From the NCBI GenBank assembly GCA_020629005.1, contig JAHDEE010000023.1:1-39126 (forward strand): 39,126 nt of DNA, read 5' to 3'. The notes beneath the pieces were generated by a model that was not told the DNA's origin, made no database searches, and saw nothing but the letters and a program-made list of their open reading frames with translations. Each line of letters opens with the position of its first letter. Within the stretch, counting starts at the first letter, position 1. The stretch comes from Chitinophagales bacterium. GTDB taxonomy: Bacteria > Bacteroidota > Bacteroidia > Chitinophagales > UBA2359. Below, in pieces: positions 22,995 through 26,055 of this stretch. The translations under genes were made by a program, and so were the position numbers.

Positions 22995-23594
22995 ATGCCA
23001 AACATTATTATCGAAGGTAAGAGCATACGTTTGCGCGATTGGATCATGTCAGATCTGGAAATTTACTCACACTGGAATACCGGTAGTCATCTTTGGATGG
23101 ATTACAATGGACCTTACTATCCGAAGATGGACGAAAAAGAACTTAAAGTTTCGCTTGCCAAGACCCGGCAAAGAATTGAGCAGAGCTTTTTCCCCGAACC
23201 GCGAACTGAACTGGTGGTTGCTGATAGGGAGACGGATAAGATGTTGGGAGCTGTGAGCTGGTATTGGCAAAGCAAGGAAACCAATTGGATGAGCCAGGGA
23301 ATTGTATTGTACGATGATGGCTTCTGGGGCAGGGGAATTGGTTTTGAAGCCTTGGGGTTGTGGTGTGAATATTTGTTGAAGCAATTCCCCGAACTGGCCA
23401 GACTTGACTTGAGAAGCTGGTCGGGCAATCACGGATTGATGCGTTTGGCGGAAAAATTGGGTTTCCGAAAGGAAGCCTGCTTCAGGAAGGCACGCATAGT
23501 AAAAGGCCAGTTTTATGATTCTGTTGGCTACGGATTGCTGCGAGAAGAGTGGCAAGAACGTTATCCACAAGGGTTCATAAAAAAAGAGACATAA
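22995..23594 (+). CDS. GNAT-family N-acetyltransferase (RimJ/RimL type)
   Basis: 199 aa, cytoplasmic. The fold begins with IEGKSIRLRDWIMSDLEIYS. The acetyl-CoA-binding motif A is GIVLYDDGFWGRGIGFEALG, and the later RLDLRSWSGNHGLMRLAEKL plus GFRKEACFRKARI is the usual RimJ/RimL ending. The acceptor is unknown; similar proteins acetylate ribosomal-protein N-termini or small molecules. Its last six codons overlap the terminator stem that serves the convergent gene. Confidence 0.88.
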   Translation: MPNIIIEGKSIRLRDWIMSDLEIYSHWNTGSHLWMDYNGPYYPKMDEKELKVSLAKTRQRIEQSFFPEPRTELVVADRETDKMLGAVSWYWQSKETNWMSQGIVLYDDGFWGRGIGFEALGLWCEYLLKQFPELARLDLRSWSGNHGLMRLAEKLGFRKEACFRKARIVKGQFYDSVGYGLLREEWQERYPQGFIKKET

Positions 23595-23614
23595 GGGTCA
23601 TCCCCTATGTCTCT
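23578..23614 (-). terminator. Terminator of the pheA operon, overlapping the acetyltransferase 3' end
   Basis: On the minus strand AGAGACATAGGGG pairs with CCCTTATGTCTCT around a short loop, followed by a run of seven T. It ends the gene at 23639. The stem itself encodes the last residues of the convergent acetyltransferase and could also serve it, although that side lacks a T run. Confidence 0.85.
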
Positions 23615-23638
23615 CTGTGCATTTAATTGCCACTAGAA

Positions 23639-24166
23639 CTAGGCTTCCATCAGATTCAGGTTGGCAGAAATTCTATCTAAGAGCGCCTGCTCTCCGTCGC
23701 TGACCAATGTGCCGCCGAAACCGAGAAAGCCACCTTCCTTTGCTGCCTCAGCAACTTTCACAGCGATTTCACGAAGCCACATTTTATACTCCGCTGCCAC
23801 TTCAGGACTCTCCTTTTCTGCCAGGATGTCATTGATCTTACACAGGTCGTCGATCATCAGATCGGCAAGTTGCTCAGAGCCTTTGACCTCATTTGCCTGA
23901 ATACGGCGAACGACCATATCCTTCTGATCCTTGGCCATTTTTTTTGCTGCATCAGCATCTTGCATTGAAGGAGAAATGGAGGCAACCAGGGCATTGTCGG
24001 GATAAGACTTAACGCCATCCATCAGGGCGCGGATACTGGCCATTGCCTCTTTTACTGATCCCAGGACACCACTGCTGCCAATCGATGTTACTGCTACACC
24101 CACAAGCTGGGGTGCGCACATGAGCAATTCTGTTTCTTCTTCTGTAAACTTTTGTAGGTAGGACAT
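23639..24166 (-). CDS. Small helical protein of unknown function, downstream of pheA
   Basis: The ATG at 24166 (MSYLQKFTEEETELLMCAPQ) gives 175 aa; a longer frame from 24202 overlaps the pheA stop. The sequence is predicted to be mostly helical, without signal peptide or membrane segment. It has a conserved-looking Gly-rich loop near the end (EGGFLGFGGTLVSDGEQALL) and a charged middle (MAKDQKDMVVRRIQANEVKG). I do not recognise a named domain. It starts 32 bp after pheA on the same strand and shares its terminator, so it is probably co-transcribed and under the same attenuator. No link to phenylalanine synthesis can be read from the sequence. Confidence 0.75.
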   Translation of the reverse strand: MSYLQKFTEEETELLMCAPQLVGVAVTSIGSSGVLGSVKEAMASIRALMDGVKSYPDNALVASISPSMQDADAAKKMAKDQKDMVVRRIQANEVKGSEQLADLMIDDLCKINDILAEKESPEVAAEYKMWLREIAVKVAEAAKEGGFLGFGGTLVSDGEQALLDRISANLNLMEA

Positions 24167-25051: not shown

Positions 25052-25126
25052 AAAAAAAATCCCGCTTTTCGTTGGAAAACCGGGAGACGTTCTGAAAAAT
25101 GCTTTTGACACACAAAGCCCGGTTCT
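25052..25126 (-). promoter_or_regulatory. Transcription attenuator of pheA (antiterminator plus terminator)
   Basis: On the minus strand the terminator TCCCGGTTTTC / GAAAAGCGGGA (25060-25085, one mismatch in 11 bp) is followed by eight T at 25052-25059, only 7 bp before the pheA ATG. Its 5' arm also pairs with AGAACCGGG (25118-25126): AACCGGG is exactly complementary to CCCGGTT at 25078-25084. That alternative arm starts at the base after the leader-peptide stop codon. A ribosome reaching the stop would cover it and allow termination. A ribosome stalled at the Phe codons would leave it free to form the antiterminator. Confidence 0.8.
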
Positions 25127-25186
25127 TTAGGTATTCCAAAAGATGCCAAAAAAGAAATAAGATCGATATGTGTCAGTAGCTTGCAT
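25127..25186 (-). CDS. pheA leader peptide (Tyr/Phe/Trp-rich attenuator peptide)
   Basis: A 19-codon frame, ATG 25186 to TAA 25127-25129, reads MQATDTYRSYFFFGIFWNT. It contains two Tyr, four Phe (three consecutive) and one Trp in ten codons. This is the classical signature of a translation-coupled attenuator for an aromatic amino acid gene, comparable in logic to the enterobacterial pheL peptide. GGAGG lies 8 bases before the ATG. It is followed at once by the antiterminator arm and then the terminator in front of pheA. Confidence 0.8.
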   Translation of the reverse strand: MQATDTYRSYFFFGIFWNT

Positions 25187-25209
25187 AAAAAAAGCCTCCA
25201 CAGGGAGGC
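25187..25209 (-). terminator. GCCTCC hairpin with T run directly before the pheA leader ATG
   Basis: On the minus strand GCCTCC-CTGT-GGAGGC is followed by seven T and then the leader ATG. It can terminate the LytTR gene that ends at 25336. It could also be part of the leader: its 3' arm contains GGAGG, a possible ribosome site for the leader peptide. A TATAAT-like hexamer lies just upstream (within 25215-25222), which would start the transcript near this hairpin. Which role applies cannot be told from sequence. Confidence 0.65.
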
Positions 25210-25335
25210 ATGTTCGATTATAGAAGCCTTCCCCTTTGTTTAGGATTCAAAACAAAAATAGAAGGAAGTAAATATTGCCTGGCGCTTAAGCATGGAATAA
25301 AGATGGGATTTTTTGTGAGATTCTGCAAATCTTTC

Positions 25336-26055
25336 TCAGAAACTTAGACGCTCCTTAAACTTCGAAGCCTGCCTACGTGAAATCTCGATTTCTTCACCGC
25401 CGTGCTTCAGGCTCAATTTGAACTTTCCATTGAACCAAGGATCAATTTTGTCTATGTATTCGAGATTGATAATCTGCTGCCGATTTGCCCTGAAAAACAA
25501 TTGTTCATCCAGTCTTGTCTCCAGGTAATTCAGAGAGCGGTAAATGAGTGGTTTGTTGTCCTGGAAGTGTATTCGAGTATAATTGCCGTTTACTTCCATT
25601 AACCTTACCTCTGCAAGTTTTACCATCCAGCATTGCTCACCATCTTTGACAAAGACCTGACTTTGCTTTCCGAGTGGTTGATCTTTTTTCTTTTCTGCAA
25701 GTTCTACAAACTTCTCTTTGGCCTTATGCACTGCTTTGGCCAATCGATCAGGGTGTACTGGTTTTAGCAGATAATCCAAGGCATTAAATTCAAAAGACTT
25801 GATAGCATATTCATCATAGGCGGTGGTGAAAATGACTATGGGTGCCTCTTCGAGCGCCTCCAGCATTTGGAAGCCGTCCATGCCAGGCATTTGAATATCC
25901 AGAAAAATGAGATCTGGTCGCTGCTCGCCGATCAGCTCCAGGCCTTCTTGTCCGTTGCTGGCTTCCCCGATCACCTCCATATCAGGAATGTCTTTTAGCA
26001 GGTTCTTTAGCTCCGTTCTTGCCAATCGGGAATCTTCAATTATTGCTACTTGCAT
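25336..26055 (-). CDS. LytTR-type response regulator
   Basis: The ATG at 26055 (MQVAIIEDSRLARTELKNLL) gives 239 aa. The receiver domain spans 1-120 with phospho-acceptor Asp53 (DLIFLDIQMPGMDGF) and the conserved TTAYDEYAIKSFEFNALDYL and KPV. The LytTR DNA-binding domain spans about 135-239 (VRLMEVNGNYTRIHF, LDEQLFFRANRQQIINLEYI, EIEISRRQASKFKERL). The open frame runs 40 codons further upstream, but that part lies partly in MITE copy C and is not native. It is paired with the LytS-like kinase upstream; the MITE sits between them. Confidence 0.93.
   Translation of the reverse strand: MQVAIIEDSRLARTELKNLLKDIPDMEVIGEASNGQEGLELIGEQRPDLIFLDIQMPGMDGFQMLEALEEAPIVIFTTAYDEYAIKSFEFNALDYLLKPVHPDRLAKAVHKAKEKFVELAEKKKDQPLGKQSQVFVKDGEQCWMVKLAEVRLMEVNGNYTRIHFQDNKPLIYRSLNYLETRLDEQLFFRANRQQIINLEYIDKIDPWFNGKFKLSLKHGGEEIEISRRQASKFKERLSF

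Follow-up and report, generated by a model that had tools for sequence, protein, structure and literature searches.

Two serial Phe/Tyr leader modules, probable transcription attenuators, upstream of pheA in a Chitinophagales bacterium

The pheA locus and its two leader modules

The DNA analysed here, referred to as the window, is a stretch of 39,126 nucleotides from a draft assembly of a Chitinophagales bacterium, and all of the attenuator parts described below lie on its minus strand together with pheA (25044-24199). The product of pheA, the presumed target of control, matches the Pfam family PDT (PF00800, E 2.1e-45), which bears out its initial annotation as a prephenate dehydratase, and it is the sole PDT protein encoded genome-wide. 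Upstream, a response regulator gene ends at 25336. Downstream lies a gene without an assigned function (23639-24166, minus strand; MSYLQKFTEEE...), followed by a hairpin of 15 pairs with a T-run (23583-23616, minus strand) that is probably the terminator at the end of the unit. The protein of this gene has no match in Pfam or NCBIfam and is 64% identical to its counterpart in the only congener found (G001, loci L003/L030), which is also a draft assembly, a MAG named Chitinophagales bacterium, and whose PheA is 73% identical to that of the window. Members of this protein family are present in 10 of 100 relatives, and the gene adjoins pheA in the window genus only. That it belongs to the regulated unit, as had been suggested, is plausible within the genus, where it is probably the last gene of the unit and the congener has it 3' of pheA in identical order and strand, but elsewhere the relatives with both genes carry its homologue and pheA on separate contigs.

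Next to pheA lies the attenuator that was first noted, here called module 2. Its leader ORF (25127-25186) runs from an ATG at 25186 to a TAA at 25127 and encodes MQATDTYRSYFFFGIFWNT; the corresponding peptide of the congener, MPAQQSYYCSFSFFCFFEQ, likewise has 19 codons. The antiterminator arm AGAACCGGG (25118-25126) begins one base past the stop codon and pairs with CCCGGTTTT of the terminator T2 (25052-25085), AACCGGG being perfectly complementary to CCCGGTT of the T2 5' arm. T2 comprises TCCCGGTTTTC-CAAC-GAAAAGCGGGA (25085-25060) and a run of eight T (25059-25052) that ends 7 nt upstream of the pheA ATG (25044), and it is conserved with changes in the congener. The 19-codon leader, the arm with its exact complementarity and the terminator with its eight T all stand as the initial annotation had described them, except that the stem, given there as 11 bp, folds as RNA into 10 pairs and one G.G mismatch. 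The pairing of arm 2 with T2 was matched by two of 200 shuffles in the window and by none of 200 in the congener. Another possible arm (25106-25115) would pair with the leader 2 codons CUGACACAUA (25176-25167) in a classic 1:2 hairpin, which is visible in the MFE folds of the window and weakly supported, 15 of 200 shuffles equalling it; as a general feature such a protector hairpin is not supported, reaching p<=0.05 in 22 of 115 modules. An ORF as aromatic as leader 2 preceded T2 in 190 of 20000 dinucleotide shuffles (about 1%). Taken alone this is modest support, and a single sequence can only be suggestive because T-rich DNA yields Phe codons cheaply.

Module 2 is confirmed, yet it makes up only half of the arrangement. 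A complete second module, module 1 (25293-25187), lies directly upstream of it, so that the attenuator claimed before pheA, while strongly supported by the relatives, had been described incompletely: there are two in series, with the promoter upstream of the first. Leader ORF 1 (25240-25293), from an ATG at 25293 to a TAA at 25240, encodes MLKRQAIFTSFYFCFES with four Phe and one Tyr towards its 3' end, making it the least aromatic leader in the set (5 of 10), and the congener has MQEQTVNFGNFYFYRLF at the equivalent place. Right after the stop codon, antiterminator arm 1 occupies the AGGGGAAGGC(U) region (25225-25236, ends approximate) and pairs, with a 2-nt bulge, with the 5' arm of the terminator T1; the duplex has an energy of -13.2 kcal/mol, equalled by five of 200 shuffles in the window and two of 200 in the congener. 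T1 (25187-25209) is a GCCTCC-CTGT-GGAGGC stem-loop (25209-25194) followed by seven T (25193-25187), the last of which is one base before the leader 2 ATG; stem and T-run are identical in the congener and the loop differs. Modules were detected as an intrinsic terminator of -7 kcal/mol or lower with an ORF of 6-45 codons, containing at least five aromatic residues in ten, that ends no more than 95 nt upstream of the terminator. Applied to both strands of the 39-kb window, this detector returned exactly two modules, 1 and 2, and it returned no module when the module 1 region of the window or of the congener was shuffled (0 of 3000).

Conservation and distribution among relatives

In the congener the same series is found, MQEQTVNFGNFYFYRLF, the GCCTCC hairpin with its seven T, MPAQQSYYCSFSFFCFFEQ, a terminator, pheA and a gene of the 23639 type, and the order common to both genomes is histidine kinase, response regulator, leader 1, T1, leader 2, T2, pheA and the 23639-type gene. 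Alignment of the two loci shows that the promoter block, the two arms each of T1 and T2 and the two leader frames have been kept; the leader frames are free of gaps and retain their Phe and Tyr codons, and the loops and non-aromatic codons drift. We sampled pheA upstream regions from 114 genomes of the window's order and found at least one Phe/Tyr leader and terminator module in 94 of them, with two in tandem in 21 (two loci of family f1, that is the window genus, nine of f18 and ten of f21). About seven further tandem cases are visible that were missed through stricter early settings or spacing. On the antisense strand of these upstream regions (77 kb) there were no modules, compared with 115 on the sense strand. 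It is this comparison that decides whether module 2 is real and, on sequence grounds, conservation in the congener and the 94 of 114 relatives settle the matter.

Outside the order but in the same class, 20 of 25 genomes had one module and none had two, and elsewhere in the phylum one module was seen in three of 45 genomes. Within the window's own family, four loci (L006, L007, L009 and L017) have pheA without a module near it. At two loci of family f1 (L013 and L014) pheA and the Phe/Tyr attenuator upstream of it are separated by about 700 nt that apparently include another gene, which the unit may have gained. At two others, of family f18 (L092 and L098), the distance to pheA is about 275-340 nt, short CCCACG...CGTGGG-type inverted repeats having displaced the attenuator upstream.

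Every one of the 90 leaders of the first pass contains both Phe and Tyr, against a summed expectation of 0.08 from shuffles, and 18 contain Trp. The mixture of Tyr, Phe and Trp codons that had been remarked upon in module 2 is therefore present as far as Phe and Tyr are concerned, but it is the rule in the group and not a peculiarity of this locus. In the tandem loci of f21, FFWYQ closes the first leader, which is conserved, and the second is without Trp, which hints at unequal signals. A sensor of both Phe and Tyr would be sensible because pheA neighbours an aminotransferase gene, found 3' of it in relatives (identified by eye from translations), and in several relatives (G007, G008, G014 and G020) tyrA is on the pheA contig as well. 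Prephenate dehydrogenase TyrA (PF02153) was not detected in the drafts of the window genome or the congener, a provisional result. The window genome does have an aromatic amino acid hydroxylase (PF00351), none being seen in the congener draft, and this enzyme could convert Phe to Tyr, in which case a Tyr response of pheA would still make sense. HisG (PF01634), searched for in the draft window genome, was not found there. On another contig of the window genome (C352, locus L119) a leader, MIVLVNNSWWRFDDSVFGMMRSCYVVN, with Trp-Trp is followed by a GC-rich hairpin and a T-run before trpE; this is probably a trp attenuator, and the same kind of control would then be used elsewhere in that genome.

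The switch itself was examined by taking the RNA from the last clustered aromatic codon to the terminator and finding its best duplex with the terminator 5' arm. These duplexes average -15.6 kcal/mol compared with -8.2 for shuffled sequence, with p<=0.05 in 96 of 115 modules, and in 112 of 115 modules the arm prefers its own terminator to those taken from other loci (Wilcoxon p 3e-20). An earlier form of the test, in which the region examined began near the stop codon, gave p<=0.05 in 36 of 115 modules only; it was weak because in many relatives the arm sits within the last leader codons. The median end of the arm in relatives is 3 nt before the end of the stop codon and arm 2 of the window starts directly after it, and in either placement a ribosome finishing the leader would cover the arm. 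The initial annotation held that the two folds exclude each other and that a ribosome sitting on the stop codon would mask the arm, and it proposed that related pheA upstream regions be searched for a leader ORF and co-varying arms. The former agrees with the own-partner preference and with the abutment of arm 2 on its stop codon; the latter have been found, and we take the own-partner preference of the arms to be that co-variation.

Promoter position and proposed mechanism

Upstream of leader 1, window and congener share the arrangement TTTG-N20-CATCTTTA-N4-ATG. In the window the putative -33 element TTTG lies at 25326-25329, in an ATTTGCA block that is kept in the congener, and the putative -7 box CATCTTTA (25298-25305; consensus TAnnTTTG) is 4 nt upstream of the leader 1 ATG. 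Conservation is the main support for this promoter because the box is imperfect and its score, 8 of 10, is reached at 24 of 268 random positions. Searching up to 40 nt from the leader ATG, we found promoters of the -33 TTTG/-7 TAnnTTTG type scoring 9-10 of 10 before 53 of the 73 leaders at single loci; at tandem loci they precede 16 of 21 first leaders but only one of 21 second leaders (Fisher 3e-6, first against second), and they occur at one of 268 random positions. Since strong promoters are nearly absent before second leaders, these would depend on read-through of T1 from the first promoter, and both modules are probably on one RNA, as the position of the promoter suggests. Two candidates for a promoter just before leader 2, TATTTTTG (25260-25253) and TATAATCG (25222-25215), were rejected, as neither has a matching -33 element; TATTTTTG is also absent from the congener, and second leaders in tandem loci are generally without a promoter.

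The TAnnTTTG -7 box has been placed at -12 to -5 (PMC9723704). Transcription in the window would accordingly begin at or beside the A of the leader 1 ATG, leaving this leader leaderless. At single loci the ATG is most commonly exactly 7 nt past the -7 box (18 of 53), a gap that would give a 5' UTR of about 3 nt, with a gap of 4 nt giving none. Bacteroidota seldom use Shine-Dalgarno sequences, and the near-leaderless first leaders may be relevant to Shine-Dalgarno-free initiation in this phylum. The leader 2 ATG touches the U-run of T1, and the sole Shine-Dalgarno-like sequence available to it is the GGAGG within the 3' arm of T1, 8 nt upstream. It is possible that antiterminator pairing with the T1 5' arm frees this GGAGG, so that antitermination at T1 and the loading of ribosomes on leader 2 would be coupled; the 12-39 nt found in other tandem loci at the position of this 8-nt gap count against the idea, as does the rarity of Shine-Dalgarno use in the phylum.

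It might be argued that only module 2 attenuates, that T1 simply terminates transcription of the histidine kinase-response regulator operon upstream and that the aromatic ORF before it is accidental. T1 does lie downstream of the response regulator gene, with synteny conserved, and it is without a G.C-perfect antiterminator. Against this reading, no better terminator is found nearer the response regulator gene, the congener keeps leader 1 in frame with its Phe and Tyr codons, module 1 did not arise in the 3000 shuffles, and the two-module layout recurs at 19 other loci with different upstream genes. Leader 2, whose ATG abuts the T1 T-run, also shows no promoter of its own between it and T1. 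We therefore regard such an explanation as improbable. Very probably, pheA is under two serial ribosome-mediated transcription attenuators on one RNA.

Each module combines a short ORF with many codons for the product amino acids, a terminator between leader and gene (T1 or T2) and a maskable antiterminator that excludes the terminator fold; there are thus two leader ORFs with alternative structures, their single transcript being suggested by promoter position. From what is directly observed, namely the sequence anatomy, its conservation in the congener, the own-partner pairing of the arms and the distribution in relatives, we infer leader translation, stalling, termination and a multiplicative response as follows. 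Transcription would start at or beside the leader 1 ATG. With Phe- or Tyr-tRNA scarce, a ribosome would stall at the Phe and Tyr codons of leader 1, leaving arm 1 free to pair with the T1 5' arm, so that T1 would be blocked and the polymerase would continue. With ample charged tRNA, the ribosome would reach the leader 1 stop and cover the arm, T1 would fold and transcription would stop. Leader 2 and T2 would repeat the decision, pheA being read only after both gates have been passed, and overall read-through would approximate the product of the fractions at T1 and T2.

The leaders might instead work mainly on pheA translation or RNA stability, with the hairpins as processing or sRNA-forming signals, and T2, ending 7 nt from the pheA ATG, could have a fold that influences translation. 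Such a role is very unlikely, as T-runs abut the stems in nearly all modules, the arms are mutually exclusive, and the spacing from terminator to gene varies from 6 to more than 100 nt across relatives, which favours transcription termination. Protein- or metabolite-binding hairpins of the T-box or riboswitch kind, with the ORFs as by-products of T-rich sequence, would fit the ease with which such DNA gives a score like that of leader 2, but they can be dismissed almost entirely, since an Rfam scan found no leader, T-box or riboswitch family at gathering score and Phe with Tyr is universal among the 90 leaders. For the serial attenuators we lean towards the view that homotypic tandem attenuators form a two-step product gate which sharpens control of pheA by Phe/Tyr supply, originated or persisted in three families of Bacteroidota, and has a first leader that is leaderless or nearly so.

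Relation to known attenuators

Most documented cases of ribosome-mediated attenuation come from Proteobacteria and Actinobacteria. In the enterobacterial pheL-pheA system a Phe-rich leader and an overlapping antiterminator and terminator precede the prephenate dehydratase gene. The window resembles it in target, leader and overlapping structures, and the match proposed by the initial annotation holds for the logic but does not extend to the Rfam model of that leader (Phe_leader, RF01859), for which the score is 21.6 bits and the cut-off 55. The window differs from it in having Phe and Tyr codons, two modules, a probably leaderless first leader and a different phylum. Leaderless leader peptides are found in actinobacterial and alphaproteobacterial attenuators, for example Sinorhizobium trpL and those of Corynebacterium; translation from the RNA 5' end is a putative feature in common, whereas the window case is in Bacteroidota and has a TAnnTTTG promoter.

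Within the phylum, the transcriptome of Flavobacterium psychrophilum gave strong clues for leader-peptide attenuation before amino acid operons, and a structured element without an Rfam match, conserved in Flavobacteriaceae, was reported upstream of pheA (PMC9723704), so that single pheA leader elements have already been suggested in that species. Gene, phylum and the lack of an Rfam match are shared with the window; the main text of that report differs in describing no pheA leader, mechanism or tandem layout. The present data point to pheA attenuation as a class-wide rule in Bacteroidota for which Rfam has no model, and the doubled form offers a natural experiment on the reason for two identical serial sensors. 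If two stalling decisions multiply, basal expression should be lower and the response steeper than with a single module.

Same-signal tandem attenuators on an amino acid biosynthetic gene were not reported in the literature searched, which consisted of the main texts of open papers. The mgtCBR leader of Salmonella, described as a singular example, has tandem attenuators whose signals differ (ATP and proline) and act additively (PMC3641672). The window shares with mgtCBR two short ORFs per leader RNA and stalling codons for an amino acid, which in mgtCBR are in one ORF. It differs in that both leaders are Phe/Tyr-rich by codon content, so that the differing signals of the mgtCBR type are not found, and in that each has its own intrinsic terminator. 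The tandem pheA device would be a variant of ribosome-mediated attenuation, and apparently a new one.
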